Of a stretch of 64,000 bases of DNA, positions 8,135-55,620 are shown one piece after another (position 1 is the first letter of the stretch; the number at the start of each line of letters is the position of its first letter). The notes beneath the pieces were generated by a model that was not told where the DNA came from, ran no database searches, and was given only the letters and a program-made list of their open reading frames with translations. Origin of the DNA: Pigmentiphaga sp. NML030171 (lineage in GTDB: Bacteria > Pseudomonadota > Gammaproteobacteria > Burkholderiales > Burkholderiaceae_B); the NCBI RefSeq assembly GCF_002188635.1, contig NZ_NINX01000024.1, forward strand, positions 186,001 to 250,000, given 5' to 3'. Made by a program: the position numbers and the translations under genes.

Positions 8135-8695
8135 ATGTCGGCACCGCACCCACTCAACCAGGCCGTGATCGCCCAGGCCCTGCATGACCTGCGCAACGGC
8201 CAGTTGCGCCGCTGCAAGGCCATGGGCTTCGGCGAGGAGGAACTGGACGCGCTGAAGCACCCCGAACTCGTGAGCATGCTGGTGAATGCCACGGTGTCGT
8301 GGTGTTCGGTGTCGGTGAACCGGGAAGTGTTGAAGCGGCTGCTGAGCCAGGTGCACGACGTGGAGCGGGAGATCGCTACGGTGGACCGCATGCTGCGCCT
8401 GGGGGCGAGCACGGAGATGGTCAGCAAGTTCTACGGCCTCACGCATCAGGAAGTGGCGCTGCGCCGCGACATCCTCGGGCTGCCCAAGCGCAAGGGCCGG
8501 CATCCGGTGCTCGACGAGGCGCAGGACGTAGCTTTGTGGGAACGCTGGAAGGCCGGCATCACGGAGCGACACATCGCACTGAACGACGACATGGCGATGC
8601 TGGCGCTGACCATGGACTTGGCCGAGGCCATGAGCCTGCCGATGTCGGTGATCTGGTCGGCGATACGGAACTGGGTCGACCAGGGGCTGGTGTAG
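8135..8695 (+). CDS. DUF2857 protein, BisD-like positional homologue
   Basis: 186-residue helical protein of the DUF2857 family, always found between parB and the STY4528 gene in these ICEs. The block MLRLGASTEMVSKFYGLTHQ looks like the helix-turn-helix region of FlhC-type activators. In ICEclc, as I recall, the gene in this position (orf97571) was named bisD. Its product forms the master activator complex BisDC together with the next gene's product. The role here is inferred from position. AGGAGG lies 6-11 bases before the ATG. Confidence 0.8.
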   Translation: MSAPHPLNQAVIAQALHDLRNGQLRRCKAMGFGEEELDALKHPELVSMLVNATVSWCSVSVNREVLKRLLSQVHDVEREIATVDRMLRLGASTEMVSKFYGLTHQEVALRRDILGLPKRKGRHPVLDEAQDVALWERWKAGITERHIALNDDMAMLALTMDLAEAMSLPMSVIWSAIRNWVDQGLV

Positions 8696-9898: not shown

Positions 9899-9919
9899 AG
9901 CTATCCCCAGGGGATAGCT
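9899..9919. repeat. ICE palindrome, copy 1
   Basis: Perfect inverted repeat with 10-base arms (AGCTATCCCC and GGGGATAGCT) around one A, starting 7 bases after the STY4528-family stop. The following bases CTGGGACAG..AGCCTTC are also shared with copy 2. Copies 1 and 2 bracket the toxin-antitoxin cassette. Confidence 0.8.
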
Positions 9920-9968
9920 GGGACAGGGAGCCTTCTGGCGGGTCAATCCGGCTACACCCTTGCCAAGG

Positions 9969-9980
9969 TCTCAATTGAGA
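9969..9980 (+). promoter_or_regulatory. candidate operator of the RelBE-type module
   Basis: Perfect 12-base palindrome TCTCAATTGAGA, 38 bases before the antitoxin start. It lies between a possible -35 (TTGCCA, 9960) and AT-rich bases (TACAAAATA) that could act as -10. This is the usual place for autorepression by RelB/DinJ-type antitoxins. Binding is inferred. Confidence 0.55.
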
Positions 9981-10018
9981 TACAAAATAGGGGCTAATGC
10001 ATAACAGGAGAAGTAACG

Positions 10019-10318
10019 ATGGCCGCACAGACTTCGATGCTGCACATCCGTGTGGACGATAAGCTCAAGGCCGATGCCGCCGAGAAGCTCGCCGGGGTCG
10101 GCCTCACCGTTTCGGACGCCGTGCGCATCCTGCTGACCCGTGTGGTCAAGGAAGGCGCGCTGCCGGCTGGCCTCACGGCCGACCCGGAGGCCTACGATGC
10201 CTGGTTCCGGGCGAAGGTTCAGGAGGCGCTGGCCGACACACGGCCGCCGGTGCCGCACCAGCAGGTCATGGACGAGGCGCAGGCCCTGATCGACAGGAAG
10301 CGGCGTGCGCGTACTTGA
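10019..10318 (+). CDS. RelB/DinJ-family antitoxin
   Basis: 99-residue protein with an N-terminal ribbon-helix-helix (MLHIRVDDKLKADAAEKLAG, then LTVSDAVRILLTRV), as in DinJ/RelB antitoxins, and a C-terminal toxin-binding tail. It is preceded by an AGGAG ribosome site and a 12-base palindrome. Its end overlaps the toxin gene by 14 bases, which couples their translation. It should neutralise the RelE/ParE toxin and repress the operon. Confidence 0.88.
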   Translation: MAAQTSMLHIRVDDKLKADAAEKLAGVGLTVSDAVRILLTRVVKEGALPAGLTADPEAYDAWFRAKVQEALADTRPPVPHQQVMDEAQALIDRKRRART

Positions 10319-10592
10319 GTGGCGGCAAGCTGCCCGCGCCGACCTGCTGGCGATTGTTGACTACATCTCGGACGACAACCCCGATGCCGCGCAGCGGTTG
10401 AAGGACGACATCGAGGCCAAGGCCGCGAAGCTGCCGGAGCGCCCGAAGCTCTACCGGCCTGGCCGCGTGGCCGGCACGCGGGAGATGGTCGTGCGTGCGA
10501 ACTACGTCGTGGTCTACATGGAGGACACCCGCGCGGTGTCCATCCTGCGCGTGTTGCACGCCGCGCAGCAGTGGCCGCCGGCACGGGAGTGA
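10305..10592 (+). CDS. RelE/ParE-superfamily toxin
   Basis: 95-residue toxin starting at GTG inside the antitoxin gene. It has the ParE/RelE pattern: an N-terminal strand and long helix (LEWRQAARADLLAIVDYISDD, cited only in part), KLYRPGRVAGTREMVV, then YVVVYMEDTRAVSILRVLHA. ParE-type members poison gyrase and RelE-type members cut mRNA on the ribosome. The REMVVRANYVV context is commoner in ParE/YoeB-like members, so the target is not settled. The gene appears intact. Confidence 0.87.
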   Translation: MRVLEWRQAARADLLAIVDYISDDNPDAAQRLKDDIEAKAAKLPERPKLYRPGRVAGTREMVVRANYVVVYMEDTRAVSILRVLHAAQQWPPARE

Positions 10593-10620
10593 AGGCGGTT
10601 TTCCTCACTGGAGATTCACC

Positions 10621-10812
10621 ATGAATGCCAAGGAGCCTGAAGCAGCCAAACTCAAGGCGCTGCAGGAAGCAGCTTGCATGGGCTGGGCCGACATCGCCGC
10701 CGGCCGCCATGCCGGTGTCGCCGACGGCCAACTCGAAGGTTTCATTGCACAGTTGGGACAGCAGACGGCGCTTGCCGTCGCTACCCGCCGCGAGGCTATC
10801 CCCAGGGGATAG
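10621..10812 (+). CDS. small unknown protein ending inside palindrome copy 2
   Basis: 63-residue acidic, helical protein with no clear family. The ATG follows GGAGATTCACC. The stretch GWADIAAGRHAGVADGQLEGF resembles short toxin-neutralising proteins near RelE/ParE genes, but this is weak. The last codons and the TAG stop are supplied by ICE palindrome copy 2. The original 3' end may therefore have been replaced when the palindrome arrived. Confidence 0.5.
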   Translation: MNAKEPEAAKLKALQEAACMGWADIAAGRHAGVADGQLEGFIAQLGQQTALAVATRREAIPRG

Positions 10813-10813: not shown

Positions 10814-10935
10814 TGGGACAGCCAGCCTTCCCGGCACGGACAAACCAGGCGCACGCCGATTGCGGTTTGTTGACTGACGGCCTTCCGGTCGGTGCCGATG
10901 CTGGCGACTCGTTCCGTTAATGCGAGTCGTCACCC

Positions 10936-12692: not shown

Positions 12693-12713
12693 AGCTATCC
12701 CCAGGGGATAGCT
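12693..12713. repeat. ICE palindrome, copy 3
   Basis: Third exact copy of the inverted repeat (arms AGCTATCCCC / GGGGATAGCT around one A), in the 280-base gap between ssb and topB. The downstream flank (CCAAGGTCG) differs from copies 1 and 2. A small hairpin CGGTTG-TAG-CAACCG at 12655-12669 just before it could end the ssb transcript. Confidence 0.8.
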
Positions 12714-14927: not shown

Positions 14928-15734
14928 CGCCCACGTCTCCCTCTGCCACGCCGGCTCTTGCGGACGGCGGGGCAAACCTCCCGCGCCCCGCGGGACTCCC
15001 CAGCGCGCGTTCCCTTCTGCAACGGTGTGCGCGTCCTGCACAGACCAATCACGGCTTGCAGGGCGAGAAGGTCATTGCTTCGTCGAATCGCGCTCGCCGC
15101 GATTCCGCTGATTGACGTGCTTCCGTCCATCCGCGAGCGGTCTCCTGACGCCTTGGCCCGCAAGGCTGCGAGGTGCCAGGAGACCGCTTGCGGTCGACGG
15201 TATTCGGTGCCGGTGCCCGCCGGCGGAACAACGGGTTCCCTTTGTGTGTGGATGCACGCCAGAGGATGCCGGCCCCAGCCACGAAACGGGCCGGGTGAGA
15301 TTGCTGACGCAGCGAATGGCTTTGACGACGGCCTGGCCTGCTTGCAGCCCACAGGTGGATTGATTCTTCTCCAGCCGAAGCCCTACGGGGCTTCGGCGCC
15401 TTTGTCGTGGGCGGACAGATCGTGCACTGCTGCTGCCGGCAGTGCTCGGGCCAAACCGGACGGCGGGCGGTTCCGTTTGATCGGCGACGGTGCGCCGCCG
15501 CGCTTCCATCCTTCCCGCATGTGTCGCTGACGGTCGTCAGCACCATGCCCTGGCAGCTCCGGTCTTCAAGGCTGCAACGCGCCTCGCCGCGTTGACCGAT
15601 CCAGTCCGCCTCGCACCGACCACCGCGGACGCGCGTCGCCACGACGCGGGTGTTTTCGATGTTCAACCTTTCGGGAGGTCTCCGCTCCCGACAGGGCGTG
15701 GTGCTCCCGGTCTTCAACCACCAGGAGAAACCAT
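14928..15734. other. 800-base non-coding stretch with hairpin and long leader
   Basis: No convincing coding frame. It holds a strong inverted repeat at 15132-15192: 16-base arms, 15 matching, around GCGGTCTCCTG / CAGGAGACCGC with a 29-base loop. It also holds the conserved two-hairpin leader at 15526-15594 and a long untranslated stretch up to the next gene. Ribosome-site bases (CCAGGAG) occur only at 15720. The long leader fits a transcript controlled after initiation. Confidence 0.6.
15526..15594 (+). ncRNA. conserved two-hairpin leader, copy A
   Basis: Hairpin 1, GCTGAC-GGTC-GTCAGC (15526-15541), is followed 33 bases later by hairpin 2, CAACGCG-CCTCGC-CGCGTTG (15575-15594). A homologous unit with the same 33-base spacing lies upstream of the DUF3577 gene (44171-44241). 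The stems are kept while the loops differ. Shared linker bases include CATGCCC and TCAAGGCT. It may be a structured 5' leader or a protein-bound operator. Confidence 0.55.
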
Positions 15735-15986
15735 ATGTCCCTCGCGTTCGCATCGGCACCTTTGAGTGCTGAACAGGCCCGCGCCGAATCCATCGGCTAC
15801 CAGGCCCTGGCCTACGTTGGCAAGCGCCTGCCCCTGCAGGTGCTCTGCAGCGCAGCCGGCCACTACATCGGCACCGCCGATGCGGATGGTCCCGTCTCGC
15901 GCGAGTCGGTCAGCTTCTTCCGCTCGCACCACGCTGCCGAGCACGCCCTGCAAACGGGCCGCTGGCAGCAGCGCCTCCACCCGTGA
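15735..15986 (+). CDS. small ICE protein of unknown function
   Basis: 83-residue protein with SIGYQALAYVGKRLPLQVLC and SFFRSHHAAEHALQTGRW motifs; I cannot name a family. It follows a good ribosome site (CAGGAG) and a long structured leader. It lies 24 bases before the next gene, with which it is probably co-transcribed up to the terminator at 16444. Small proteins like this are typical of the post-topB region in these ICEs. Confidence 0.7.
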   Translation: MSLAFASAPLSAEQARAESIGYQALAYVGKRLPLQVLCSAAGHYIGTADADGPVSRESVSFFRSHHAAEHALQTGRWQQRLHP

Positions 15987-16010: not shown

Positions 16011-16403
16011 ATGAACCGTGCTCTGCCTCAAGAGGTACTTGATCAGATCAAGCTGGAAAACCAGCACTTCGCCGCCGCGCCCCAAGCCTTCTTCGAGGCG
16101 TGGAAACGCGGCGTCAACATCGCCGGTGCCGAATGGTTCGGCGACGGCACACGCGAAGGTCTGCAGCGTGCCACCACCAAGTGGGACCTGCGGCCCAACA
16201 TGCTGATGCTCAACGACGCCCTGGGCGTGCTGAGCAGCGGTCAACGCATGTTCCTCTCCGCGATGGTGAGCTTCTACAACGCCCGCGAGGGCGGCGCGAT
16301 GCTCAAGCGTTGCGGCTTCGAGGGGCTGTCCGACTTCGGCGGCCTCGATCTGGAACGGCGCCAGGTCATCGCTGACCTCACGCTGCACTACAACGGCTGG
16401 TGA
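16011..16403 (+). CDS. ICE protein of unknown function
   Basis: 130-residue soluble protein: LPQEVLDQIKLENQHFAAAP, then ATTKWDLRPNMLMLNDALG and LSSGQRMFLSAMVSFYNA, ending in LTLHYNGW. No family is recognised. The start is supported by the AGGAG sequence 10 bases upstream. It shares a transcription unit with the 83-residue gene before it. A strong intrinsic terminator follows 40 bases after the stop. Confidence 0.72.
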   Translation: MNRALPQEVLDQIKLENQHFAAAPQAFFEAWKRGVNIAGAEWFGDGTREGLQRATTKWDLRPNMLMLNDALGVLSSGQRMFLSAMVSFYNAREGGAMLKRCGFEGLSDFGGLDLERRQVIADLTLHYNGW

Positions 16404-43996: not shown

Positions 43997-44395
43997 CATT
44001 GGACTGTTGGATGCACCGGACGGAGTTACCACCTCCCGTCACGAATGGCGACCGTATTTCGTCAACCCTCACTTTTCGAGGAAGCGATGGCGAGACGAAT
44101 CGGGTTGGACTTCGATGCTGATTTCCTCTCGCCCTTAACGCTGAAGAATGACAGGCTGATGCCGTGTTCCGCTGACCGCCGTCAGCAACATGCCCAGGTA
44201 GCCATGATCCTCAAGGCTACGACGCGGTTCCGACCGCGTTGATCACACCAGTTCGCACCGGCATCCATGCGCGAACGGCCATCGGTTCTCGATGGCGATG
44301 CCACCAAGCTGTTCCATCAACCCACGCGGGGGTTCCACACCTTCCCCGCCTTGGGTCGGGTGTGTCTCCGCCTCATTGTTCCCAGGAGATTCACC
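43997..44395. other. non-coding leader of the DUF3577 gene
   Basis: No gene seen. It contains the second copy of the two-hairpin leader (44171-44241) and more than 150 further untranslated bases before CCAGGAG and the ATG at 44396. The border between cargo and ICE core must lie between 43996 and 44165. Confidence 0.6.
44171..44241 (+). ncRNA. conserved two-hairpin leader, copy B
   Basis: Hairpin 1, GCTGAC-CGCC-GTCAGC (44171-44186), and hairpin 2, CGACGCGGT-TCCG-ACCGCGTTG (44220-44241), are 33 bases apart exactly as in copy A. Against copy A the loops change, one pair in stem 2 changes from A-U to G-U, and the stem is lengthened by matched changes. The neighbouring bases CATGCCC and TCAAGGCT are shared. 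Confidence 0.55.
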
Positions 44396-44947
44396 ATGAC
44401 CACTTCCACCGAAAAGTCCTACTTCGATCTGCACATCACCGGCCTCGGGTACCTCAATCGCATCCGCGAAGTGAAGCCCAAGAAAGGCGATGCGTTCCTA
44501 GCCTGCGACATCGCAGCCCTGAACGGTCCCAGCGATGACGTCTCGTATGTGCGTTTCGACACGCGCGTATCGGGATCGGAAGCGCAGCACCTGGTGCGCC
44601 GCTGCATTCAGGCGGTCGACGCCGAGAAGAAGGTGATGATCGGCTTCCGCCTGGGCGACCTGTGGACCGACACCTTCACCTACTCCAAGGGCAAGCGTGC
44701 CGGCGAGCAGGGGGTGAGCCTCAAGGCCCGCCTGCTGTTCGTCAGTTGGATCAAGGTCGACGGCAAGCTCGTCTACAAGGCCGAACCCAAGCCGACCGAG
44801 ACCGACGAGCGCGACCCGGAAGTCCCTGTGACGTCCGACGCGCCCGCTGCGCAGCAAGCCTCGGCACCGGAGCCTTCCGAGTCCGTCGCCGATGCTGCCG
44901 ACGACGCAGCCGATGCCCCCGCATCGGCCGCTGCCGAGTCGTTCTGA
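44396..44947 (+). CDS. DUF3577 (STY4534-family) ICE protein
   Basis: 183-residue protein of the STY4534/DUF3577 family. The conserved N-terminal domain (YFDLHITGLGYLNRIREVKP, then FLACDIAALNGPSDDVSYVR) resembles an OB-fold single-strand-binding protein. An Ala/Glu/Asp-rich acidic tail (about residues 140-183) follows. It may bind DNA during transfer. It is preceded by the structured leader and followed by a strong terminator. In ICEclc the equivalent promoter is activated in transfer-competent cells. Confidence 0.85.
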   Translation: MTTSTEKSYFDLHITGLGYLNRIREVKPKKGDAFLACDIAALNGPSDDVSYVRFDTRVSGSEAQHLVRRCIQAVDAEKKVMIGFRLGDLWTDTFTYSKGKRAGEQGVSLKARLLFVSWIKVDGKLVYKAEPKPTETDERDPEVPVTSDAPAAQQASAPEPSESVADAADDAADAPASAAAESF

Positions 44948-44984: not shown

Positions 44985-45002
44985 CGTCAGCAGGAGACCT
45001 CA

Positions 45003-45265
45003 TGATCACCATCCCCGGCCAACTGGCCATCAAGACCATCCACGGCAGGAACGGCGACTTCAACGTCGGCCGCCTGGCGACCTCGATCGGCGAGTTCGTC
45101 GTGAAGAACGCCGAACTCGATCAGTACTGCGAGGGCAAGTACGACGGTGATTTCGTCATCGTCGAGATTCGCCCCGCCACGTACAACGCCAACGGCCGCA
45201 TGGTCATCGAGATCCGCGCCCATCTGGGCGGGATGACGCTGTCCAACATCGACGCCCTAACCTGA
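45003..45265 (+). pseudogene. DUF3275 ICE gene, 3' part removed by deletion
   Basis: 87 codons matching the start of DUF3275 proteins (MITIPGQLAIKTIHGRNGDF, then NVGRLATSIGEFVVKNAELD). The family is normally over 200 residues. After GMTLSNIDAL the sequence passes directly into a conjugation gene in another frame, and a TGA follows within two codons. The N-terminal domain may still be made. It marks the left side of a large deletion. Confidence 0.8.
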
Positions 45266-46416
45266 TCTGCGGCGACATGAGCATCACCACGACGCTGCAG
45301 AACCAGCTCAACGGCATCACCAACGGCTTCCAGACGATCATGAGCAACGTGATCCAGAACGCCACCAGCGCCGTGGCCTCGCTGCCGGCGCTGATCATCC
45401 AGCGCGCCGACCCGGGCCTGTACAACCTGCTCACCAACGGCATCCTGCAGGCGCGCCTGGATTTCGACCGCTCGAAGATGACCTGCCGGGCCATCGCCAA
45501 TCGCATGGCGGACATGGCCGGCGGCCAGGCCGGCTGGGACCAGCTCGCCGAGGGGATGGCGCTGCGGGATGCGGTCAGCAGCACCGATGCCGTCTCCGCC
45601 ATCGAGCAGGCCGAGTCCAACAAGGGGAACAACGGCGTGCCCTGGGTCGGCGGCGGCAACGCGGGCGGCTCCGGCCAGAGTTCGATCAAGGTGGTCGGCG
45701 ACGTGACGCGCGCGGGCTACAACCTGCTCAACGGGCGCAGCGCCACCGATACCTCGTCGATCGCGCGCAGCGCCTGCGGCAACCGCCTGACCTGCCAGAC
45801 CTGGTCGTCGCCTGGCGCGGCCGCGGCCTTTGCGAACCGCGTGCTGGGCGAACGCGAGCAACGCACCTGCGAAAACTGCACGAAGACCCAGACCACGCCT
45901 GGCGTCGGGCTGACGCCAATGATCCAGGAAGAGTACGAGACCAAGCTGCAGGCGCTGCAGGAACTGGTGACGGGCGCCCGGCCGACGACGCTGGCCAATC
46001 TCGACGCAGCCGGCAGCAGCTCGCTGCCAATCACCCGCGGCGTGATCGAGGCCCTGCGTGACGAACCCGACCAGGACGTGCTGGGCCGGCGCCTCGCGTC
46101 CGAGGCTGCGCTGTCCAGCGTGCTGGAGAAGGCCCTGCTGCTGCAACGCACGTTGCTGACCGGCAAGAAGGAGCCGAACGTCGCCGCCAACGAGCTGGCC
46201 GTGCGAGCGGTCGAGCAGGAGAACAGCGCGCTGGAGCAGGAGATCAACAACCTCAAGACCGAGCTGGAACTGCGCCGCACGCTGGCCGGTAACTCGGCGA
46301 TGGCGATCATCCAGCGCCACAGCACCCGCGCGGCCGGTTCGCGTGGCGTCTTCGAGGGCGACACTACACGCGACCGTCTGCGGGAGGTTCAGAAGCCGCG
46401 GAGCGGTACGCCATGA
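45255..46416 (+). pseudogene. ICE conjugation protein, PFL_4711 family (TIGR03755), N-terminus deleted
   Basis: The 379-residue frame from ATG 45277 matches PFL_4711 proteins (TTLQNQLNGITNGFQTIMSN, LPALIIQRADPGLYNLLTNG). Native sequence reaches just before this ATG (CGDMS in the same frame). The family's signal peptide and first 60-70 residues are missing. C-terminal coiled-coil stretches (ENSALEQEINNLKTELELRR) are present. Without a signal sequence it should not reach its periplasmic or envelope site. The last bases overlap the next gene. Confidence 0.85.
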
Positions 46417-46766
46417 GCCGGCTCGCCTGGCTGCGGCTGCCATGGCTGTTCAACCGCCGCGTCGGCGTGGCGCTGCTGTGGACCTTGCTGGTGGCCGCCG
46501 CCGCGGTGGCGGTGAACATCGCCGGCATCCACGTGGTCGGCGGCGTCGAGGGCTGGCACCACTGGCTGCAGGCGCACGCCGGCCACTTCTTCGTGTGGCG
46601 GCTGTGCCTCTACGGAGCGACGGCTTACGGCTGGTGGTGGATGCGTCGGCGCCTGTTGCGGCGGGAGCCGTCCCGCGAGACGCATCAGCGCCTGCTGCGC
46701 ACGGAGATCGCGGCCGTGATCGCCGTGGTCGCGCTGGAAGTCAGCCAACTGTTGCGGCACGGCTGA
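46413..46766 (+). CDS. small membrane protein of the conjugation region
   Basis: 117-residue protein with about three hydrophobic helices (VALLWTLLVAAAAVAVNIAG, HFFVWRLCLYGATAYGWWWM, EIAAVIAVVALEVSQLL). It lies between the PFL_4711 and traG-like genes, overlapping the former by 4 bases. In related ICEs a small hypothetical gene occupies this position. Presumably a mating-channel component; no direct evidence. Confidence 0.75.
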   Translation: MSRLAWLRLPWLFNRRVGVALLWTLLVAAAAVAVNIAGIHVVGGVEGWHHWLQAHAGHFFVWRLCLYGATAYGWWWMRRRLLRREPSRETHQRLLRTEIAAVIAVVALEVSQLLRHG

Positions 46767-46781
46767 GACCCGGAGGCAGGC

Positions 46782-48314
46782 ATGACGCTCTACACCACGG
46801 ACTACCTGGAGTATTACCTGACCCTGGTGGCTTGGGTGGTCAACAACGGCATCTGGAGCATTCTCGTGGCCAGCGGCGTGTTCGCGCTGCCGTTCGTGGC
46901 CATCGTGATCCAGGAGTGGCTCAATGCCCGCAGCGAAGGTGCGGACGAAGGCAACAAGGGCGTGCTGTCGTCGATGCGCATCGAGAACCGGGTGTGGGTG
47001 GCGATCGTGGTCATCATGTTCGCCGGCATCCCGTTCATCCCGGTGGATCTCGCCACGATCAAGTTCGACACCACGCGCTCCGCGCAATGCCAGGTCAGTG
47101 TCCCGCTGCCCAACGACACGGGCTGGTCCAACGTCTACACGGCGCTCAACGACCAGAGCGCGCTGGTGCCGGTGTGGTGGTTCTTCATGCACGCGCTGTC
47201 GAAAGCCGTGACGGCCTCCGCGGTGGCGGCGATTCCCTGCGGCACGGACCTGCGTCAGATTCGCATGGATGTGGATGCCACGCGCATCGACGATCCGGTG
47301 CTGGCACAGGAGGTCGCCGACTTCACGCACGACTGCTACGGGCCGTCGCGCGCCAAGCTGTTCATGAACCGGCCGACGCTCTCCGACGAGCAGATGAACG
47401 ACGTCACCTGGATCGGGTCGAGTTACTTCCTCGACATGCCCGGCTTCTATGACACCTATCGCGCCAAGGCCCCACGCACGGCCTGGCCCTACGACGCGAC
47501 CCGCGATGCGGGGCTGGCACAGGTGGACAGCGGCGGCGGCTATCCGTCCTGCCGGCAGTGGTGGGCCGATGGCGGCCAGGGACTGCGCAGCCGGCTGCTG
47601 GCACAGGTCGACCCGGACCTGCTGACCCGCATCGGGCGCTGGGTGGGCTTCCTGTCGCAGAGCGAGGTCAATGACTCGGTGATCCGCGCCGTGGTCTCGC
47701 CGAGGCAGCAGAAGATGAACCAGGGCACCGTCTACACCGACTACGGCGGCCAGATCGACAAGACGCTGCCGAACATCGTCACGCGCGGCGCGAGCGACCT
47801 GGGGCTGACCGTCGGCTCGCTGGGCTTTTTTCCGGCGATGGACGTGGTGCGCCAGGCGCTGCCGATGGTGCTGACCATGCTCAAGATGGCGCTGGTCATC
47901 TGCATCCCGCTGGTGCTGCTGATCGGCACCTACGACCTGAAGACGGTGGTGACGGTGAGCTGCGTCCAGTTCGCGCTGTTCTTCGTGGACTTCTGGTTCC
48001 AGCTCGCGCGCTGGATCGACAGCACGATCCTGGACGCGCTCTACGGCTGGGGGTTTGGCGCGGACAGGCCGCATACGAACTTCGATCCGTTGATCGGTTT
48101 GAACAACGCCTTTGGCGACATGCTGCTCAACTTCGTCATGGCGATGATGTTCATCGTGCTGCCGACGTTCTGGGTCATGGCACTCGGATGGGCAGGAGTT
48201 CGCGCTGGAAACTTCCTGGGCGGTCTCATCACTGGCACGTCCGATGCGAAGTCGGCTGGAGGTAGTGGCTCTCGCCTTGCGATGACGGCCGTATCGAAAG
48301 GTGCGGCGAAGTAA
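46782..48314 (+). CDS. TraG N-terminal-domain conjugation protein
   Basis: 510-residue inner-membrane protein of the TraG_N group: N-terminal helices (VNNGIWSILVASGVFALPFV, WVAIVVIMFAGIPFIPVDL) and a large periplasmic part with several Cys. A second helix group lies near 370-480 (MVLTMLKMALVICIPLVLLI). TraG_N proteins take part in mating-pair stabilisation and pilus assembly. It is intact and keeps the usual position after PFL_4711. RBS GGAGG precedes the ATG. Confidence 0.88.
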   Translation: MTLYTTDYLEYYLTLVAWVVNNGIWSILVASGVFALPFVAIVIQEWLNARSEGADEGNKGVLSSMRIENRVWVAIVVIMFAGIPFIPVDLATIKFDTTRSAQCQVSVPLPNDTGWSNVYTALNDQSALVPVWWFFMHALSKAVTASAVAAIPCGTDLRQIRMDVDATRIDDPVLAQEVADFTHDCYGPSRAKLFMNRPTLSDEQMNDVTWIGSSYFLDMPGFYDTYRAKAPRTAWPYDATRDAGLAQVDSGGGYPSCRQWWADGGQGLRSRLLAQVDPDLLTRIGRWVGFLSQSEVNDSVIRAVVSPRQQKMNQGTVYTDYGGQIDKTLPNIVTRGASDLGLTVGSLGFFPAMDVVRQALPMVLTMLKMALVICIPLVLLIGTYDLKTVVTVSCVQFALFFVDFWFQLARWIDSTILDALYGWGFGADRPHTNFDPLIGLNNAFGDMLLNFVMAMMFIVLPTFWVMALGWAGVRAGNFLGGLITGTSDAKSAGGSGSRLAMTAVSKGAAK

Positions 48315-48342
48315 GGAGCACGTTCTCGCGTTGATGCGACAG

Positions 48343-48711
48343 CTACGGCTCGTCGGGATCGCCCATGTCGATCCGCCAGTCATCTTTGTCGTACAGGCCG
48401 ACGCCCGAGTGTCCGTCTCTAAGTTCCGGCTGCTTCTCGTCGTCCTCATCGGCATTCCGCGCGAGCCATGCGGCGACCACCGCAAAGGCCAGCAGCAGGG
48501 CGAGCCAGGATACGGTGTAGAGCAGCACACCAAGCACGGCCAGCTTGACGATCCAGAGCACCGCCGTCGCCGCGCCTGCGGGCATCCCGCGCGTCACCAG
48601 CCAGCCGGTGACACGCTGCTCGCGGCGCAGGTATCCACGCCAGACACGGCCAGCCCCCCGGCCCAGCCGGTGGCTCCAGCGCCCGTTGTGCGTGTTGGTG
48701 GTCATGCTCAT
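48343..48711 (-). CDS. DUF3742 membrane protein of the ICE
   Basis: 122-residue DUF3742 protein, encoded opposite to traG as in related ICEs. The N-terminus is basic and cytoplasmic (GRWSHRLGRGAGRVWRGYLR). Two close helices follow (AATAVLWIVKLAVLGVLLYT, WLALLLAFAVVAAWLA) and the tail is acidic. The function is unknown. Confidence 0.85.
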   Translation of the reverse strand: MSMTTNTHNGRWSHRLGRGAGRVWRGYLRREQRVTGWLVTRGMPAGAATAVLWIVKLAVLGVLLYTVSWLALLLAFAVVAAWLARNADEDDEKQPELRDGHSGVGLYDKDDWRIDMGDPDEP

Positions 48712-48832
48712 ATGCCTCGGCTTCAGTGGTGCCTCACCTCGCGGAGCGGCCGGTCGTGGCCTGCCCTCCAGCATAGACCGCGATCAGGAGGGCGGGTTGC
48801 GGCCGGCAGAGCCGGGTTGGCTCGGGTCGCAG

Positions 48833-48919
48833 GTCGATTAGATTCTGCACGATAAATCAAACCTTATACTACTTTCCATGCACGTTCTTGCAATGGCTCT
48901 AGGGGTCGATTTGATTCTG
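48833..48919. repeat. 15-base direct repeats upstream of abiE
   Basis: GTCGATTAGATTCTG (48833-48847) and GTCGATTTGATTCTG (48905-48919) differ at one base and are 72 bases apart. They flank an AT-rich stretch. They lie just upstream of abiEi and are candidates for AbiEi-binding sites. A -10-like TTTATA lies at 48927. Confidence 0.6.
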
Positions 48920-48934
48920 TGTTATTTTTATAAC

Positions 48935-49693
48935 ATGGATGGAAATTCTAGGCACCAGGTAATCAAGCGGCTGCAGGCGGGACTCCCCCGCGGGGCGCCG
49001 TTCGACCTTGCCACCCTGAGCCAGTTCGGGGTGTCGCCCCAGCTCGCCGCCCACTATGCCGACGGCGGGTGGCTCGTGCGCCTGGCCCACGGCGTCTATG
49101 CCTTCCCGAACGATGAATTCGGGGTCTACGGTGCGCTGAAGTTCCTGCAACAGCGCGTGCCCGGCCTGCACGTTGGCGGCAAGAGCGCCCTGGCCCTGCA
49201 GGGCGTGCGGCACAACCTGGGCAGCCGGGAGACGCTGGTGCTGTGGGGCGACGGTCGTTTCGCGTTGCCGGCCTGGTTCACCTCGCGCTTTCCGGCCCGC
49301 TACGTCCACGCCCGCCTGTTCGACTGGCCGGACACGGCGCTGGCCAGCAAGACCCTGACCACGCCGCCTGGCCTGCCCGAGGATCTGCGGGTGGCTGCCT
49401 CCGAGCGAGCCGTTCTGGAGCTGCTGTACGAAGCCGGCGTCAAGCAGAGCCTCGAAGAGGCCCGCAACATCTTTGATGGACTGCGTTCCCCCCGCAAGGA
49501 CTTGCTCGGGCAACTGCTGTCCTGCTGCGCCAGCGTGAAGGCCGTGCGCCTGTTCCTCACCTGGGCGCGCGAGACCAGCCTCGTGGATGTCGATGCCCTG
49601 CTGGAGCAGTACCCGGTTCGCACCGGCAGCAACACGCGCTGGATGAGCCGGCTCGATGACGGCACCTTGCTGAGCCTGAGACCTCATGGATAA
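48935..49693 (+). CDS. abiEi: AbiEi-type antitoxin (type IV toxin-antitoxin)
   Basis: 252-residue AbiEi-like protein. An N-terminal winged helix-turn-helix (PFDLATLSQFGVSPQLAAHY, then GWLVRLAHGVYAFPNDEFGV) is followed by the antitoxin domain (SALALQGVRHNLGSRETLVL). I chose ATG 48935; the longer frame starts in AT-rich promoter DNA. AbiEi represses the operon and antagonises AbiEii without direct binding. It overlaps abiEii by 8 bases. Confidence 0.88.
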   Translation: MDGNSRHQVIKRLQAGLPRGAPFDLATLSQFGVSPQLAAHYADGGWLVRLAHGVYAFPNDEFGVYGALKFLQQRVPGLHVGGKSALALQGVRHNLGSRETLVLWGDGRFALPAWFTSRFPARYVHARLFDWPDTALASKTLTTPPGLPEDLRVAASERAVLELLYEAGVKQSLEEARNIFDGLRSPRKDLLGQLLSCCASVKAVRLFLTWARETSLVDVDALLEQYPVRTGSNTRWMSRLDDGTLLSLRPHG

Positions 49694-50606
49694 GACCTAC
49701 GCGGACACCGTTCGCCTGCTGCTGGCCGTCGCGCCCGATGTGTTCGCCAACGACATCTTCGCCATGAAGGGCGGCACGGCCATCAACCTCTTCGTGCGGG
49801 ACATGCCGCGCCTGTCGGTGGACATCGACGTGGTGTACCTCCCGTGGCAGACGCCGCGCGACGAAGCGCTGCAAGCCATCAACCAGGAGCTGGCCGCCAT
49901 CGCCACGCGCGTTGCGCCACTGGGCGTGCAGACACGCCTGGTTCGCGCCAAGGACCTGGGAGACACCAAGCTGATCGTCGAGAACGACGCCAGCCAGGTG
50001 AAGATCGAGGTCAATGTCGTGTTCCGCGGCAGCGTGCTGCCCGTCGAGCGGCGGCCGCTGAGCGCCAAGACCAGCGATCTGTTCGGCGTCGAGTTCGAGC
50101 TGCCGGTTCTGGCACCGGACGAGCTGTACGCCAGCAAGCTGGTGGCCGCGCTGGATCGACAGCACCCCCGCGACCTGTTCGACGTGTGGCAGCTCTACGA
50201 ATCGGGCGACATCAGCGACGGCATGGTCGAGTGCTTCGTGGTCTATTTGGCGGGTCACAACCGGCCACCCCACGAAGTGCTGTTCGGCAACGACAAGGAC
50301 ATCGCCGGCGAGTACGAGCGGGCCTTTGTCGGCATGACCGAAGTGGACTGCTCCCTGGAGACACTGCTCGACGCTCGCGCCACGCTGCGGCGCGAGCTGC
50401 CACGGCGACTGAGCACCGCGCACAAGCAGTTTCTGAGCGGGCTGGCGCGCGCAGAACCGGACTGGTCGCTGGTGCAGTGCCAGCACGCCGCGCAACTGCC
50501 GGCACTGCGCTGGAAGCTCGCCAATCTCGAAACCTTCCGCAAGCGCCGTCCCGACGACTTCGCAGCGCAATCCGCCGCCCTCGACACCGGCTTGGGCCAG
50601 AGCTGA
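49686..50606 (+). CDS. abiEii: AbiEii nucleotidyltransferase toxin
   Basis: 306-residue nucleotidyltransferase-fold protein. The signature GGTAINLF near residue 28 and the acidic SVDIDVVY near 40 match the GG(T)-x9-D-x-D catalytic motif of MNT/AbiEii toxins. The middle (ASKLVAALDRQHPRDLFDVW) carries the conserved K-x-x-A-x-x-x-R-x-x-x-R-D-x-x-D pattern. Toxins of this family modify tRNA and cause abortive infection. It is placed between DUF3742 and the relaxase, a known cargo site. Confidence 0.9.
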   Translation: MDKTYADTVRLLLAVAPDVFANDIFAMKGGTAINLFVRDMPRLSVDIDVVYLPWQTPRDEALQAINQELAAIATRVAPLGVQTRLVRAKDLGDTKLIVENDASQVKIEVNVVFRGSVLPVERRPLSAKTSDLFGVEFELPVLAPDELYASKLVAALDRQHPRDLFDVWQLYESGDISDGMVECFVVYLAGHNRPPHEVLFGNDKDIAGEYERAFVGMTEVDCSLETLLDARATLRRELPRRLSTAHKQFLSGLARAEPDWSLVQCQHAAQLPALRWKLANLETFRKRRPDDFAAQSAALDTGLGQS

Positions 50607-50677
50607 CGAACATCCCGCAGCGCCCCACTTGCCGGGATTGCCCCATGCCGCATTCATCGTGGCACCCGCGAAGCAGC

Positions 50678-50800
50678 GGCCCTATACCCAAAGGCTTCCG
50701 ACAAAGGCCAAAGGGCTGGGAAGGGGCAAAGGAAGGGTGCCAAGGGGAAAGGCCCTATCCTGAAAAGGCCAAAAGGCGCCCCGAGCAGCCCGTCATCCGG
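50678..50800. other. purine-rich repeat region upstream of the relaxase, candidate oriT
   Basis: A 120-base stretch immediately before the relaxase gene contains two direct repeats of GGCCCTAT (50678-50685 and 50751-50758). It also has many AAAGG/AAGGG units on one strand, with strong strand asymmetry. No gene is present. Origins of transfer often lie beside the relaxase gene and contain such repeats. Nothing here proves nicking. Confidence 0.35.
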
Positions 50801-50808
50801 GGTTCGCC

Positions 50809-52660
50809 ATGCTCTCGCTGTTCCAGCGCAAACGGGTGCCACCCACCACCGGCACACCGCCCACCTCCGCCATCGAAACTCCGAAAGGGTTGATGCGGCC
50901 GGAGTCGGCCGCATCGCTGCTGGCCACGCCGCGTCGGCAGAAACTGCTGGAGCACATCTGGCAGCGCACATCGCTCTCGCGCCGACAGTTCGCCACGCTC
51001 TACCTCGCCCCACTGGAACGCTACGCCGAGCTGGTCCAGCAGTTCCCGGCCTCCGAGAGCCACCACCACGCCTATCCGGGCGGCATGCTGGACCACGGCC
51101 TGGAGATCGTCGCCTATGCGCTGAAATTGCGGCAGTCATACCTGCTGCCTGCGGGCGTCACGCCGGAGGCACAGGCGGCCCAGGCCGAGGCCTGGACCGC
51201 AGGCACGGCCTACGCGGCCCTGCTGCACGACATCGGCAAGATTGCGGTCGATCTGCACGTCGAGCATGCCGACGGCAGCGTTTGGCATCCCTGGCACGGC
51301 CCGCTGCGAAAGCCCTACCGCTTCCGTTACCGAAAGGAGCGTGAGTACCGCCTGCACAGCGCCGCCACCGGGCTGCTCTACGCGCGCCTTCTCGATCGGG
51401 ACATCTTCGACTGGCTCAGCGGCTATCCCGACCTCTGGGCCGCGCTGCTGTACGTGCTGGCCGGCCAGTACGAGCATGCCGGCACGCTCGGCGAACTGGT
51501 CGTGCAGGCCGACCAGGCATCGGTCGCCCAGGAACTCGGCGGCGATCCCAGCAAGGCGCTGGCGGCGCCCAAACATGCGCTGCAACGCAAATTGCTCGAC
51601 GGCTTGCGCTACCTGCTCAAGGAAGCGTTCAAGTTGAACCAGGCCGGACCGGCGGACGGTTGGCTGACACAAGACGCCTTGTGGCTGGTGAGCAAGACCG
51701 TCTCCGACAAGCTGCGCGCCCATCTGCTGTCGCAGGGCATCGACGGCATCCCGGCGAGCAACACGGCGGTGTTCAACGTGCTGCAGGATCACGGCATCGT
51801 GCAACCGACGCCGGATGGCAAGGCGATCTGGCGGGCGACCATTACGAGCGAAACCGGCTGGTCGCACGCCTTCACCTTCCTGAAACTCTCGCCGGCGATG
51901 ATCTGGGATGCCGCCGACCGGCCGGCGCCGTTCGCAGGCCGTGTGCAGGTCGAAGAGGAACAGGCGGAGCCGCCGCCGCTAGCGCCGGCGGTGGCCGATG
52001 GGCCGCGCGTGGAAGGTACCGAAGCTGCACCCGCGAGCACGGCGCCGATCGCATCCATAGCCACGGACACCGGCGTGGCCGCGCTGCTCGATCTGCTCGG
52101 CGACACCGCTCCGCCCACAACACCGGAGACCCCGAGTTGTCCTGTCGCCGAGCCCGAGCCGGCCCCTTCGACCGTGCCCCACGCCACAGATGAGCCTCGC
52201 GCCTTCCCAGGATCGCACGGAGCCCTCCGGGGCGCACTTCATGGCCTGGCTGCGCCAGAGCATCCAGACGCGCAAGCTCATCATCAACGACGCCAAGGCC
52301 CTGGTGCATACCGTCGCCGGCACGACCTATCTCGTCAGCCCCGGCGTGTTCCAGCGCTACGCGCAGGAGTACCTTCAAGTCGCCGCGCTGGCCAAGCAGG
52401 AGAAGCTGGAGGGGTGGCAGTGGGTACAGAAGCGCTTCGAGAAGCTGGGACAGCACCGCAAGCAGCCGAGCGGGCTGAACATCTGGACCTGCGAAGTCAC
52501 GGGGCCGCGCAAGTCGCGCCGGCTGCACGGCTACCTGCTCGTCAGCCCGGATACGCTGTTCCAGGAGACGCCGCCAGACAACCCATACCTGCGGCTCCTC
52601 AACGAGGCCGCAAAGCGCGAAGATTCAGCCCTTGGGGGCAAGGACGACGATCAGGCGTAG
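50809..52660 (+). pseudogene. traI: MobH-family relaxase TraI with one frameshift
   Basis: The N-terminal 450 residues contain the MOB-H relaxase domain: the three-His motif SHHHAYPGGMLDHGLEIVAY near 84-103 and the HD motif AALLHDIGK near 137-145. After VPHATDEP the frame changes. The conserved C-terminal domain (FMAWLRQSIQTRKLIINDAK, YLVSPGVFQRYAQEYLQVAA) is in the +1 frame from about 52180 to 52660. One base fewer in the CCCC run at 52177-52180 restores a continuous protein of about 616 residues. It may be inactivated, or the extra base may be a sequencing error. Confidence 0.85.
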
Positions 52661-52686
52661 GCATGCGACCGCTGTGCGGGCCGGCT

Positions 52687-52986
52687 TCAATCTGCGGATG
52701 GGGCCGACTCCGCCAGCTTGGCTTCGGTCAGAGTCATCAAGTGGGCGGAACTGCATTTCAGCGCACGGGCAATCTTGAGGATGAGAGGGAGCGTGGGGAC
52801 ATGCTCGCCGCGCTCGATCTTGCCCATGTGCGACCGTTCGATGCCGGCCATGTGGGCCAGCGTTTCCTGAGCTATACCCTGGTTGGTTCTTTCTTCCCGC
52901 ACGGCAGCCCCAAACGCGATGGCTGGTTCCGCTTCGTAGGTAGTGGTGCCGGTGGGGCGGCCCCTTTGGATCGAACGCTTTGGCAT
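52687..52986 (-). CDS. XRE-family regulator near the integrase
   Basis: 99-residue protein with an XRE helix-turn-helix at about 28-80 (VREERTNQGIAQETLAHMAG, then IERSHMGKIERGEHVPTLPL). The ATG at 52986 is inside the palindrome TTGGCA-T-TGCCAA (52980-52992), a likely self-binding site. It is divergent from the LysR-like gene. It may control integrase or transfer functions in the manner of a phage repressor. Confidence 0.82.
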   Translation of the reverse strand: MPKRSIQRGRPTGTTTYEAEPAIAFGAAVREERTNQGIAQETLAHMAGIERSHMGKIERGEHVPTLPLILKIARALKCSSAHLMTLTEAKLAESAPSAD

Positions 52987-53092
52987 TGCCAAGAGCGTCG
53001 AACACGGTCACGATTTAAACCACGTTAAACTTAACTCATTCAACGGCTTCGAGATCAGTTGCCACGAGTTCACCGCCTTGGGGGAGCTGGAC
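52980..53092. promoter_or_regulatory. divergent control region of XRE and LysR-like genes
   Basis: Contains the palindrome TTGGCATTGCCAA (52980-52992) over the XRE start and TTTAA-ACCACG-TTAAA near 53014-53029, both candidate operators. AT-rich bases at 53025-53040 may hold promoters in both directions. Confidence 0.45.
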
Positions 53093-53719
53093 GTGGAATC
53101 GAGTGACATCACCGCCGAAATTCGCATGGCCGTCCTCGGCGAATGGGTGCCTCCCCAGCTCGCCGACGTGCTCGCCCTGCAGCGTGCCGAAGAGCCGGAG
53201 ACCCATGCCGTCCTGGCCGGATGGACAGATCCCGTTCGAGGCGCGGAGCTGCCGGGCGACGGCTTCGACTTCGCCTTGTCTGCGGTTGCCCGGCAGTGGC
53301 CTGGCTGGGTATGCGAGCCGCTGTGGCATGACACGCTGGCGGTCGCCGTGGCCAAGCGCTCCCACCTGCTGGCCTACCGTGAAGTGCCGTGCGAGGAAGT
53401 GCTCAAGCAGCCCTTGATCTGCTCGCAGTCCACGGCCGATGAACCATGGCGCATGACCGTGCAGCGCGTGTTCGAGAACGCGCTGCAGGAGCGGGAGCAA
53501 ACGGTGGAGACATTCGATGTGGCGATGACGCTGGTTGCCGCCGGGTACGGGATCGCCATTGCGCCTGCCGCGAGACTGGCGAGCTACCTACGCCGAGGCA
53601 TCGCCGTGCGGCCGCTGGCCGGCGCACCAACGATCGTGATGGCTTACCTGCTGCGCCGCAACGCTTCCTTGTCGGACACCCAGGCAAGATTCGCCCGCCG
53701 CGCGCGCTTGGTGTCCTGA
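53093..53719 (+). CDS. LysR-type effector-binding domain without DNA-binding domain
   Basis: 208-residue protein equivalent to the C-terminal effector domain of a LysR regulator (WVPPQLADVLALQRAEEPET, VAVAKRSHLLAYREVPCEEV, TFDVAMTLVAAGYGIAIAPA). No winged helix-turn-helix precedes it. The frame upstream to 52943 has no LysR similarity. GTG 53093 with GGGGAG about 8 bases before is the best start. Stand-alone proteins of this type recur beside ICE integrases. It may modulate another regulator or bind a ligand. Confidence 0.72.
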   Translation: MESSDITAEIRMAVLGEWVPPQLADVLALQRAEEPETHAVLAGWTDPVRGAELPGDGFDFALSAVARQWPGWVCEPLWHDTLAVAVAKRSHLLAYREVPCEEVLKQPLICSQSTADEPWRMTVQRVFENALQEREQTVETFDVAMTLVAAGYGIAIAPAARLASYLRRGIAVRPLAGAPTIVMAYLLRRNASLSDTQARFARRARLVS

Positions 53720-53766
53720 CAGACGCGCGGGAATCGCGGTTTCGCCACGATCCCGCATTCCTGCTG

Positions 53767-55620
53767 CTATGCGACCCCGACTCGCGGCGGGGTCCATTCG
53801 CTTTCCTTCACGGCTGTGCTCACTGCCATGACGAGCTTGTCGAGATTGCTGGCCGTCACGCCCTCCAGTGCCGAATGCCCCCGCAGCATCGAGCGCGGTT
53901 GCAGCAGTGCATGGTAGATCTGCCAAGGGTCCGCACCCCTGGTCAACTTCAGGACGGACTGGATCAGCTCGTGCTTGAGTGGGTCGAGGTGCCAGTCCGG
54001 CACGCGCTGGCCGCGGTTGCCTACGTTCAACGCCAGCAAGTTGCCCGCCTTGATCTCGTAGCTGATCCACCTGCGGGATTTGCCCGCCATCTTGGCAAAC
54101 GCCGCGACGGGAAGGTTGTGCGGCGCCTCGAAGACATCGAACAGCTCCATCCTCTCGCGCTGAATGTCCGAAGGCACCAGCGGCGCGGCCGATCGAGGGG
54201 GCGGAACCGCCGGCAGCCGATGTGCGGCGGCAGAAACCAACGGCATGGCGTCGCCCGGCTTCGTCACGAGCAGGATTGGCGAAGCGGCAACCGGCGTAGA
54301 GGGGGCGCTTGCGGTTTGCTCACTCGGGAATGCGGGCACGCCTTCCAGATGCACGGTGAGCGGCATGCTGGCCGCCTCGACCTGGTTCTGCTCGAAGAGG
54401 TCGAGCCGATCGGCCCAGTCCTGCATCATGCGGCGACGCTGCTCCACGTACTCGGCATGGTTGTAGGTCGCGCTGACCTTGTTGGGATCGACATGCGAGA
54501 GCTGTGCATCCACCCAGACCTTCGGGTAGCCGATCTCGTTGAGCGCAGTGGACATCGTGCCGCGAATACCGTGTCCCGTCAGGCGTTCCTGATAGCCCAT
54601 GCGCTTGAGCGCACCATTGAGCGTGTTCTCGCTGATGCGCTTCTTCAAGTCGCTGTCGTGCCGGAACAGGTGGCGCTGGGCCGGCTTGAACTCATCCAGC
54701 AGGTGCCGGACGATCTCCATGGCCTGAATCGACAGCGGCACGATGTAGGGCGGGATGTCCTTTGGCTGTTGCCGCTTCTTGCGCATATCCAACTGGAGTT
54801 GCTTCACGACGTCGGGCGGGATGATCCACAGCCCACGGTCCAGATCGAATTGATCCGGCGTCGCCTGTCGCAGCTCTCCGGTTCGCACGCCGGTCAGCAG
54901 CAATAGCCGCAGCCCGAGCTGGGTCTGCCGCCTGCCGCGATAGCTGCGTAGCCGCTGCAACAGCTTCGGCAGCTCGGCCATGCGCAGGAACGGGTTGTGA
55001 TTGACGGGTGGCAGTGGCAGCGCCACCACATCGAGATCGGAGGCGGGGTTCTGTTCCAGGCCCGGCACGATCACCAGCGCGTAGCGGAACAGTTGGTTGA
55101 ACCACGTCCTGACTTTCTCGGCGACGGAGAGCGCCTTGCGCTTCTCGATCTTGGCGATCACCTCCAAGAGGTCGGGACGCTTGATCTCATAGACCGACCG
55201 CTTGCCCAAGGCGGGCAGCACATCCTTGTCGAAGATGCGCGGAAGTATCGAGAGGGTCGTCTGCCGGCCTTCCTTGAGGCTGAGCCCGCGATGCTTGAGC
55301 CACTTGCGATACACCGCCTCGAAGGTGTTTTCGTCGGCGAGCCGGACAGCAGTGCGCTTCTGCTTGCGGTGAACGCGAGGATTGGTGCCTTTGGCTAGCA
55401 GGGCGCGCGCTTCGTCGCGTAGGCTGCGGGCCTCGCGAAGCGTCACCTCCGGGTAGGTGCCGAGCGACATCCGCTTCTGCTTGCCCGCCCAGTAGTAGCG
55501 GAAGTGCCAAGTCCTGCCCCCTGCAGCCGTGACGGCCAGGGAGAGGCCATCCAAGTCAGGGAGGGTGTATGCCTTGCCTGTTGCCTTGGCCTGTCGAACG
55601 GCCAGGTCTGAGAGTGCCAT
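53767..55620 (-). CDS. int: ICE tyrosine integrase with extra C-terminal domain
   Basis: 617-residue P4-type tyrosine recombinase: an N-terminal DUF4102-like arm (LDGLSLAVTAAGGRTWHFRY) and core-binding and catalytic domains. The catalytic residues are in LLTGVRTGELRQA (Arg near 243), LTGHGIRGTMSTALNEIG (His-x-x-Arg near 347-350), LSHVDPNKV and YNHAEYVEQRR (Tyr near 385). Residues about 490-617 form an added domain (RWISYEIKAGNLLAL; HALLQPRSMLRGHSALEGVT) resembling Xre/MbcA/ParS toxin-binding domains. ATG 55620 has AGGAG 7 bases upstream. It is transcribed inward from the tRNA end. Confidence 0.92.
   Translation of the reverse strand: MALSDLAVRQAKATGKAYTLPDLDGLSLAVTAAGGRTWHFRYYWAGKQKRMSLGTYPEVTLREARSLRDEARALLAKGTNPRVHRKQKRTAVRLADENTFEAVYRKWLKHRGLSLKEGRQTTLSILPRIFDKDVLPALGKRSVYEIKRPDLLEVIAKIEKRKALSVAEKVRTWFNQLFRYALVIVPGLEQNPASDLDVVALPLPPVNHNPFLRMAELPKLLQRLRSYRGRRQTQLGLRLLLLTGVRTGELRQATPDQFDLDRGLWIIPPDVVKQLQLDMRKKRQQPKDIPPYIVPLSIQAMEIVRHLLDEFKPAQRHLFRHDSDLKKRISENTLNGALKRMGYQERLTGHGIRGTMSTALNEIGYPKVWVDAQLSHVDPNKVSATYNHAEYVEQRRRMMQDWADRLDLFEQNQVEAASMPLTVHLEGVPAFPSEQTASAPSTPVAASPILLVTKPGDAMPLVSAAAHRLPAVPPPRSAAPLVPSDIQRERMELFDVFEAPHNLPVAAFAKMAGKSRRWISYEIKAGNLLALNVGNRGQRVPDWHLDPLKHELIQSVLKLTRGADPWQIYHALLQPRSMLRGHSALEGVTASNLDKLVMAVSTAVKESEWTPPRVGVA

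Follow-up and report, generated by a model that had tools for sequence, protein, structure and literature searches.

Two radC RNAs at predicted late transfer operons of an ICEclc-like element in Pigmentiphaga sp. NML030171

The window analysed here, that is the whole stretch of 64,000 nucleotides from contig NZ_NINX01000024.1 of Pigmentiphaga sp. NML030171, contains ICE genes that are preceded in two places, copies A and B, by a long untranslated leader (Table 1). When the window was scanned against Rfam, three matches exceeded the gathering scores, namely one tRNA and two radC RNAs (RF01754), both on the + strand. Copies A and B belong to this family: both exceed its gathering cut-off of 40 bits, both cover model positions 1-149 of 149, and their cmscan E-values exclude chance. 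The start codon of the first gene lies 227 nt (copy A) and 243 nt (copy B) past radC position 1.

Table 1. Positions in the window of the features discussed
Feature	Position	Strand	Evidence or remark
BisC homologue (DUF2857)	8135..8695	+	Pfam PF11198, 215.4 bits
Promoter-like element at PinR equivalent, without radC	10843..10876	+	PWM 9.0, weak score
Copy A bipartite promoter-like element (AAACCGG...TTCCGTTT)	15453..15486	+	PWM score 26.2
Copy A predicted transcription start	15519, +/- a few nt	+	motif start + 66, from PinR offset
Copy A radC RNA, RF01754	15508..15653	+	cmscan 106.8 bits, E 2.4e-19
Copy A hairpin 1 (H1)	15526..15541	+	enclosed by outer CAUG/CAUG pairs, first arm 15518-15521
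Copy A hairpin P2	15552..15575	+	within the 'linker' of the initial annotation
Copy A PK1	P2 loop CGGUC with GACCG 15594-15598	+	pseudoknot pairing
Copy A hairpin H3	15575..15594	+	stem 2 of the initial annotation
Copy A helix H4 (GUCCG/CGGAC)	15604..15630	+	
Copy A PK2	H4 loop GCACCG 15613-15618, may pair with 3' end	+	weak
Copy A hairpin H5, then GGTGTTTTCG	15632..15648	+	terminator-like by pattern
Copy A hairpin X	15672..15690	+	downstream leader
Copy A possible ribosome-site hairpin adjoining start codon	15700..15732	+	CUCC with GGAG; weak, z -1.06
83-aa gene, ICEclc ORF88400 homologue	15735..15986	+	tblastn 61.5% over 65 aa
130-aa gene, ICEclc ORF87986 homologue	16011..16403	+	tblastn 81.5% over 130 aa
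Copy B bipartite promoter-like element	44098..44131	+	PWM 29.5; copy was in training set
Copy B predicted transcription start	44164, +/- a few nt	+	from PinR offset
Copy B radC RNA, RF01754	44153..44301	+	cmscan 125.2 bits, E 1.5e-23
Copy B hairpin 1 (H1)	44171..44186	+	
Copy B hairpin P2	44197..44220	+	
Copy B PK1	P2 loop UGAUC 44205-44209 with GAUCA 44241-44245	+	
Copy B hairpin H3	44220..44241	+	
Copy B helix H4 (GUUCGC/GCGAAC)	44251..44276	+	loop GGCAUC 44260-44265
Copy B hairpin H5	44277..44296	+	
Copy B hairpin X	44326..44349	+	
Copy B ribosome-site hairpin (GGUG.GUCUCC/GGAGAU.CACC), adjoins AUG	44359..44395	+	
STY4534-family ICE replication protein, ICEclc ORF81655 homologue	44396..44947	+	NCBIfam NF040584, 202.8 bits; tblastn

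The initial annotation of this DNA had noticed two hairpins in each of two stretches almost 29 kb apart, each before a long untranslated leader of an ICE gene, and had proposed either an undescribed structured RNA or a common operator of the ICE activation programme. The two hairpins are H1 and H3 of radC RNA and lie where claimed; their spacing is 33 bases in both copies (15542-15574 and 44187-44219), the starts of the two stretches are 28,645 bases apart, and our alignments show both the replacement of A-U by G-U in stem 2 and its greater length in copy B. The two stretches take in only part of the element: a third hairpin sits inside what had been taken as a linker, and the 3' domain, two more leader hairpins and the promoter-like element lie outside it. 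The RNA is not undescribed, as RF01754 was already listed in 2010 by Weinberg et al., in a catalogue whose passages on this family give it no function (PMC2864571). In a 2020 paper radC is one of the families for which additional covarying pairs are reported, its lines on radC neither showing which pairs these are nor giving a function (PMC7657543), and none is stated in the portions of the literature that we found. Nor did we find, among the matches listed in the literature searched, an earlier statement linking radC RNA to ICEclc. What is new is the genetic system to which radC RNA belongs; the RNA family itself was already known.

Copies A and B are leader RNAs of about 130 nt with two proposed pseudoknot pairings, of which the first is supported and the second weak. 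Six helices, including the pseudoknot PK1, are backed by covariation, and a further pseudoknot (PK2) is backed weakly. In an alignment of 28 sequences made without structure, 25 of the 40 named pairs showed changes on both sides, as compared to a shuffled mean of 13.4; for H1, P2 and H3 together the figure was 13 of 19 (5/6, 3/6 and 5/7, respectively). Paired cells amounted to 89.7%, as against 31-42% (at most 41.9%) with the structures slid left and 24-37% slid right, a control that favours these structures because they were picked by eye from the same set. Among 90 distinct copies, aligned to a model without H3, H4 and PK1 and not independent of the 28, several of which come from five of the same genomes, 93.1% of cells were paired and 11 of 34 pairs were two-sided (shuffled mean 6.9), a number reached by 1 of 500 shuffles. 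The structure alignment comprised the best 150 of 170 matches (80 loci, with L069, L076, L083 and L094 left out), the 20 lower-scoring copies being absent from the pairing and the G-U and A-C counts of the 90 copies.

G-U cells exceeded A-C cells in both sets (57 vs. 17 in 28 sequences, 177 vs. 43 in 90), and more so when only the nested helices were counted (52 vs. 12 and 150 vs. 16), which indicates that the sense-strand RNA is what is conserved. H4 alone gave 3 vs. 3 in the first set, and PK1 alone was even in both (5 vs. 5 and 27 vs. 27). PK1 joins the P2 loop to the bases behind H3 and showed the matched changes GAUC/GAUC, GGUC/GACC and GACC/GGUC. For PK2, a pairing of at least 6 was present in 52 of 60 copies as compared to 40% of shuffles, these 60 being the copies out of 124 in which the H4 pattern was found. 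UUCG forms the loop of H3 in 92 of 178 rows, and loop lengths vary. Taken together, covariation, the G-U over A-C asymmetry, the UUCG loops and the pseudoknot pairing bear out a structured RNA. The consensus line of RF01754 draws no H4, PK1 or PK2, which are proposed here, and differs also in that the leader described here continues with hairpin X and a ribosome-site hairpin. H4 is replaced in the copies of ORF84835 type, which accounts for the figure of 77% at this helix. This class (L132 18665-18816 and its kin) carries CAAGGGA/UCCCUUG in place of H4 and the usual 3' domain.

ICEclc was located through the -35/-10 pattern of PinR, which matched 2 of 398 genomes, one of them (G174) twice; we infer that the latter is Pseudomonas knackmussii B13 with two copies of ICEclc. 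Published ORF names fit end coordinates 172-188 lower than those measured here for 30 of 30 names. The ICEclc core (60 kb of G174) contains five radC copies, directly before the ORF89247 region, ORF88400, ORF84835, ORF81655 and ORF58432. The 185-aa gene in the first of these places was considered as the published ORF89247 and rejected, since by ORF coordinates ORF89247 is a 58-aa frame inside that gene. By homology (tblastn), copy A corresponds to the ORF88400 copy and copy B to the ORF81655 copy, and both copies are thereby predicted to head late transfer operons. In PMC9286271, bimodal promoters are reported for ORF88400, ORF81655 and ORF58432, the last being weak or not independent, and the regions upstream of ORF84835 and ORF89247 gave more RNA in activated cultures and no bimodal reporter activity. 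For the ORF68241-81655 transcript PMC2892462 gives a calculated length of 14.3 kb, and it describes separate transcripts for the operons. As compared to that transcript, much seems to be missing behind copy B: the element is short at 45002-55932, where the DUF3275 gene matches only positions 1-85 of 201 and is followed by TraG_N, AbiEi/AbiEii, TraI_2 and an integrase next to a tRNA.

A 34-bp element (AAnGCGG...TGCCGATT) is common to 38 clusters of less than 75% identity, obtained from 161 upstream regions, and in 38 of 38 it ends 21 or 22 bp 5' of radC position 1. When 3.1 million positions were scanned with the corresponding PWM, a score above 13 was found before 163 of 166 radC copies, ending 21-23 bp upstream. 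A further 46 places, including 5 on the minus strand, also scored above 13. Because the PWM was trained on radC copies, its sensitivity is in part a product of the training; this does not apply to its specificity. Nine lower-scoring copies had been restored by hand for these counts and eleven left out. By arithmetic against the 190 matches of the radC model, 11 of the 46 sites precede copies dropped from the list; another 26 have at their end the sequence found at PinR or one that differs from it by a single base. In the window, the elements of copies A and B are the top two, followed by a score of 10.0; the sequence of the copy A element sat in the training set in identical form from locus L022.

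The ICEclc copies were absent from the training set. There the element scored 23.7 before the ORF84835 copy and 22.5 before the ORF88400 copy, and elsewhere 14.0 at PinR, 16.0 before ORF67231, 16.7 at the start of ORF73676 and 17.4 after ORF58432, with a maximum of 11.7 in the reversed-sequence control. The ORF81655 element scored 10.2, which is below this maximum, and no element was listed in the PWM scan for the two remaining copies, those of the ORF89247 region and ORF58432. The ORF84835 element has the highest score in ICEclc, although the reporter fragment of this ORF showed no bimodal activity (PMC9286271). The same source describes, for the transfer-competence regulon, a 27-bp motif in 8 of 9 bimodal promoters, and the radC-linked P88400, P81655 and P58432 are among those nine; likewise, our element finds PinR and the site before ORF67231. 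The distance to the PinR start, however, is 152 bp for the 27-bp motif (legend in PMC9286271) and 66 bp for the element described here, so that the two may differ. That radC itself is the ICEclc promoter motif was also considered, and was set aside in view of the separate element upstream.

The start of PinR was mapped by RACE, with the -35 and -10 boxes printed (PMC2892462), and lies 66 bases past the start of the element. When applied to copies A and B, this offset gives a start near radC position 12 (Table 1), and the outer CAUG helix starts at position 11. The predicted +1 is therefore at the base of hairpin 1 and the RNA is probably the 5' end of late transfer mRNAs. Positions 1-10 of the Rfam motif are probably promoter DNA, so that its published drawing may combine signals of the DNA with those of the RNA. 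In ICEclc, radC starts 235 bp before the ATG of ORF81655. This agrees roughly with the one radC start that has been measured, by a primer-extension product that was very weak and ended about 250 bp upstream of the start codon (PMC2892462). According to the same paper, RACE failed for ORF58432, ORF81655 and ORF88400, and also for ORF66202, ORF73676 and ORF89746; since further ORFs failed too, the failure at ORFs headed by radC says little. Transcripts beginning 3' of both hairpins, which the initial annotation had named as evidence against its proposal, are not what these data suggest: they point to a start at or just before hairpin 1, on the basis of the PinR offset and the approximate primer-extension end at ORF81655.

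A third radC copy was found in the same genome (contig C11, 100666-100813, 143.8 bits), and the gene behind it encodes a protein 83.5% identical to that of ICEclc ORF58432, which we take, from its motif, to be RadC-like, the eponymous protein. Within the genus, 4 of 11 genomes contain radC RNA, this one included. The named genomes were scanned for relatives of the PFL_4669 protein (356, of which the best 80 loci were kept), and a search model built from 28 radC copies gave 190 matches from 84 sources at E <= 0.001, every one of them on the same strand as the core genes. A match is present in 70 of the 80 ICE loci; in nine of the other ten the sequence ends within 5.6 kb of the query gene on its downstream side, and in the last (L019) it extends for 10 kb without a topB match. 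For six loci the copies were counted across the whole genome, giving 4 to 9 in each and, in three genomes, four on a single contig. radC RNA is found in Proteobacteria upstream of ICE and DNA-handling genes, as in copies A and B and the ICE loci.

BisC carries DUF2857 (PMC7423338), and a tie of radC to every DUF2857 element was considered and rejected: 22 of 232 genomes of the class contain DUF2857, and radC was found under strict filters in 1 of the 232, the genome studied here. A closer search of 36 genomes, 18 of them with DUF2857, found radC in none among at most 62 candidates scored per genome; it comprised all DUF2857 genomes except G000 (the genome studied here), G504, G522 and G613. 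The count of 0 in 18 indicates that the presence of DUF2857 does not by itself imply radC. On plasmids NZ_CP039632, NZ_AP015030 and CP021372, stretches of about 95 bp are 81-82% similar to the radC part of copy B and fall under features annotated as thioredoxin-domain or DsbA proteins; radC RNA may thus also occur outside ICE transfer operons. The Enterobacter ludwigii plasmid NZ_CP116348 (229872-230751) matches the copy B leader and the STY4534 gene over 94% of the query with 79.5% identity, and an unannotated faecal phage record (MT835540, 15037-15107) contains a 74-base radC-like match (81%).

In 117 of 157 copies where it was callable, the start codon lies 27-96 nt past radC (median 81). 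The main leader types have in common one more hairpin and then a hairpin able to hold the ribosome site beside AUG, whose arms differ by type (GGUG.GUCUCC/GGAGAU.CACC, GGGAAUC.CCUUG/CAAGG.GAUUCCC, GGU.CUCC/GGAG.ACC and GGCG.CCUCC/GGAGG.CGCC). Ribosome-site pairing was predicted in 4 of 5 types and is strong in two: the duplex z with respect to shuffled upstream sequence was -3.72 for the ORF81655 type, -2.81 for ORF84835, -1.49 for ORF58432 and -1.06 for ORF88400, the type of copy A, where the hairpin is only weak. In the fifth type (185-aa gene, ORF89247 region), no ribosome-site hairpin was found (z +0.79). Eleven of the 12 control rows fell between -0.71 and +1.49, with one gene entered twice among the controls (as 130aa and as ORF87986) and a single sequence in each of three rows; the other row, PFL_4669, gave -2.46, with an upstream arm that falls before the PinR start.

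Other measures were mixed. For the folding energy of the last 50 nt, the controls PFL_4669 (-2.85) and DUF3275 (-2.53) gave lower values than all radC types (-0.95 to -2.22), and the unpaired probability of the ribosome site failed to separate radC genes (0.00-0.26) from controls (0.09-0.75). With respect to shuffled linkers, the ribosome site was less accessible in 24 of 24 leaders of the STY4534 family, to which the window's gene behind copy B belongs, in 13 of 18 of the ORF84835 type and in 2 of 15 of the 83-aa-gene type. By eye and post hoc, we observed that the strand burying the ribosome site is repeated just 5' of it (CCCUUG and CUCCCG in the ORF84835 and ORF88400 types, respectively), an arrangement that would allow alternative pairings, as the expression platform of a riboswitch would require.

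On this basis we consider it somewhat probable that copies A and B are leader RNAs that gate the translation of late transfer operons after BisDC has switched their promoters on. BisDC, or a local equivalent, would activate the shared promoters, as the ICEclc papers and homology suggest; the mRNA would begin with the radC fold, if the PinR offset also holds here; the ribosome site of the first gene would be buried by the leader hairpin, as predicted from its sequence with mixed controls; and the state of radC, free or bound by a protein or a small molecule, might decide whether the site opens. A protein ligand from activated cells would be as likely as a small molecule. The exact transcription start and the dependence on BisDC in this genome are carried over from ICEclc and are to be taken as presumptive, and gating at the level of translation by the radC leader is put forward as a tentative component of the scheme. 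A still more speculative extension is that radC might be the post-transcriptional arm of the bistable transfer-competence programme, a leader in several copies that would keep the late operons from being translated until it is bound by a signal or a protein; if so, transcription by BisDC alone would be insufficient for a cell to become a donor. Its position at late-operon leaders of ICEclc makes radC RNA a candidate for the post-transcriptional layer suspected at ORF81655 (PMC9286271), and places it in a system for which reporters and single-cell assays exist and the activators are known.

The put RNA of phage HK022 is similar to radC in that a mobile element carries hairpins close to the 5' end of its long operons; compared by description, radC has more helices and pseudoknot pairing. 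A leader that acts on RNA polymerase in the manner of put, by readthrough of terminators, or on mRNA decay, as a 5' fold protecting long late mRNAs, would also account for an RNA whose predicted 5' end is the base of hairpin 1 and for its place at the head of long operons such as ORF68241-81655 (PMC2892462). We judge it rather unlikely, given the ribosome-site pairing in 4 of 5 leader types; as to readthrough, terminator-like sites lie just 5' of the radC copies before ORF88400 and ORF84835, and strong readthrough would blur the operons reported there as separate transcripts.

An attenuator, in which the 3' hairpin of radC and a U run would stop the polymerase unless the upstream fold prevents it, is improbable. 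In ICEclc (locus L132) two radC copies do end in a terminator-like pattern (14905 and 15793) and a third contains one (18731), as does copy A of the window (15632), and among 124 distinct copies 37 have TTTT close to their 3' end; the other 87, however, lack such a run, and the pattern counts exceed those of shuffled sequences by about 1-1.5 sd (10 vs. 6.9, sd 2.5, and 7 vs. 4.6, sd 2.2).

It is very improbable that the hairpins are a double-stranded BisDC operator that merely looks palindromic, which was the alternative offered in the initial annotation. The radC copies are indeed located at promoters of the ICEclc regulon described in the literature, and in this sense the link to an activation programme stands, but a separate DNA element, shared, promoter-like and in fixed register upstream, occurs at PinR without radC, and the G-U excess in nested helices, the UUCG loops of H3 and the variable loop lengths argue against an operator in the hairpins themselves. 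Folding of the strand as single-stranded DNA in transfer, as an entry promoter or protein site (Frpo- or STAXI-like), would suit the ICE DNA-handling genes among those behind radC and was raised for STAXI by Weinberg et al. (PMC2864571, in the section on that motif), but is equally far from likely, because the fixed distance to the promoter-like element, the UUCG loops and the G-U excess fit RNA better. STAXI resembles radC in its pseudoknots repeated near DNA-handling genes and its UUCG loops, and differs in being made of tandem pseudoknot repeats, a likeness drawn from the description in the same section.

Besides the leaders, the window contains a palindrome, CTATCCCCAGGGGATAG, at 9901-9917, 10796-10812 and 12695-12711 (six strand matches vs. 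0.09 expected by chance), and similar sites were found at matching places in ICE loci. It was considered as a shared motif and rejected, since none of its sites (9901, 10796 and 12695) is at copies A or B. A ParB-like BisD with a loading site, bisS, has been described (PMC13393423), and our guess is that the palindrome could be a candidate bisS box. A RelB-type antitoxin gene (10019-10318) lies between two of its copies (9901-10812), with a short reading frame behind it on the same strand. At 653-1858 the window encodes a JetD-type protein (DUF3322 and JetD_C), a Wadjet-like defence gene.
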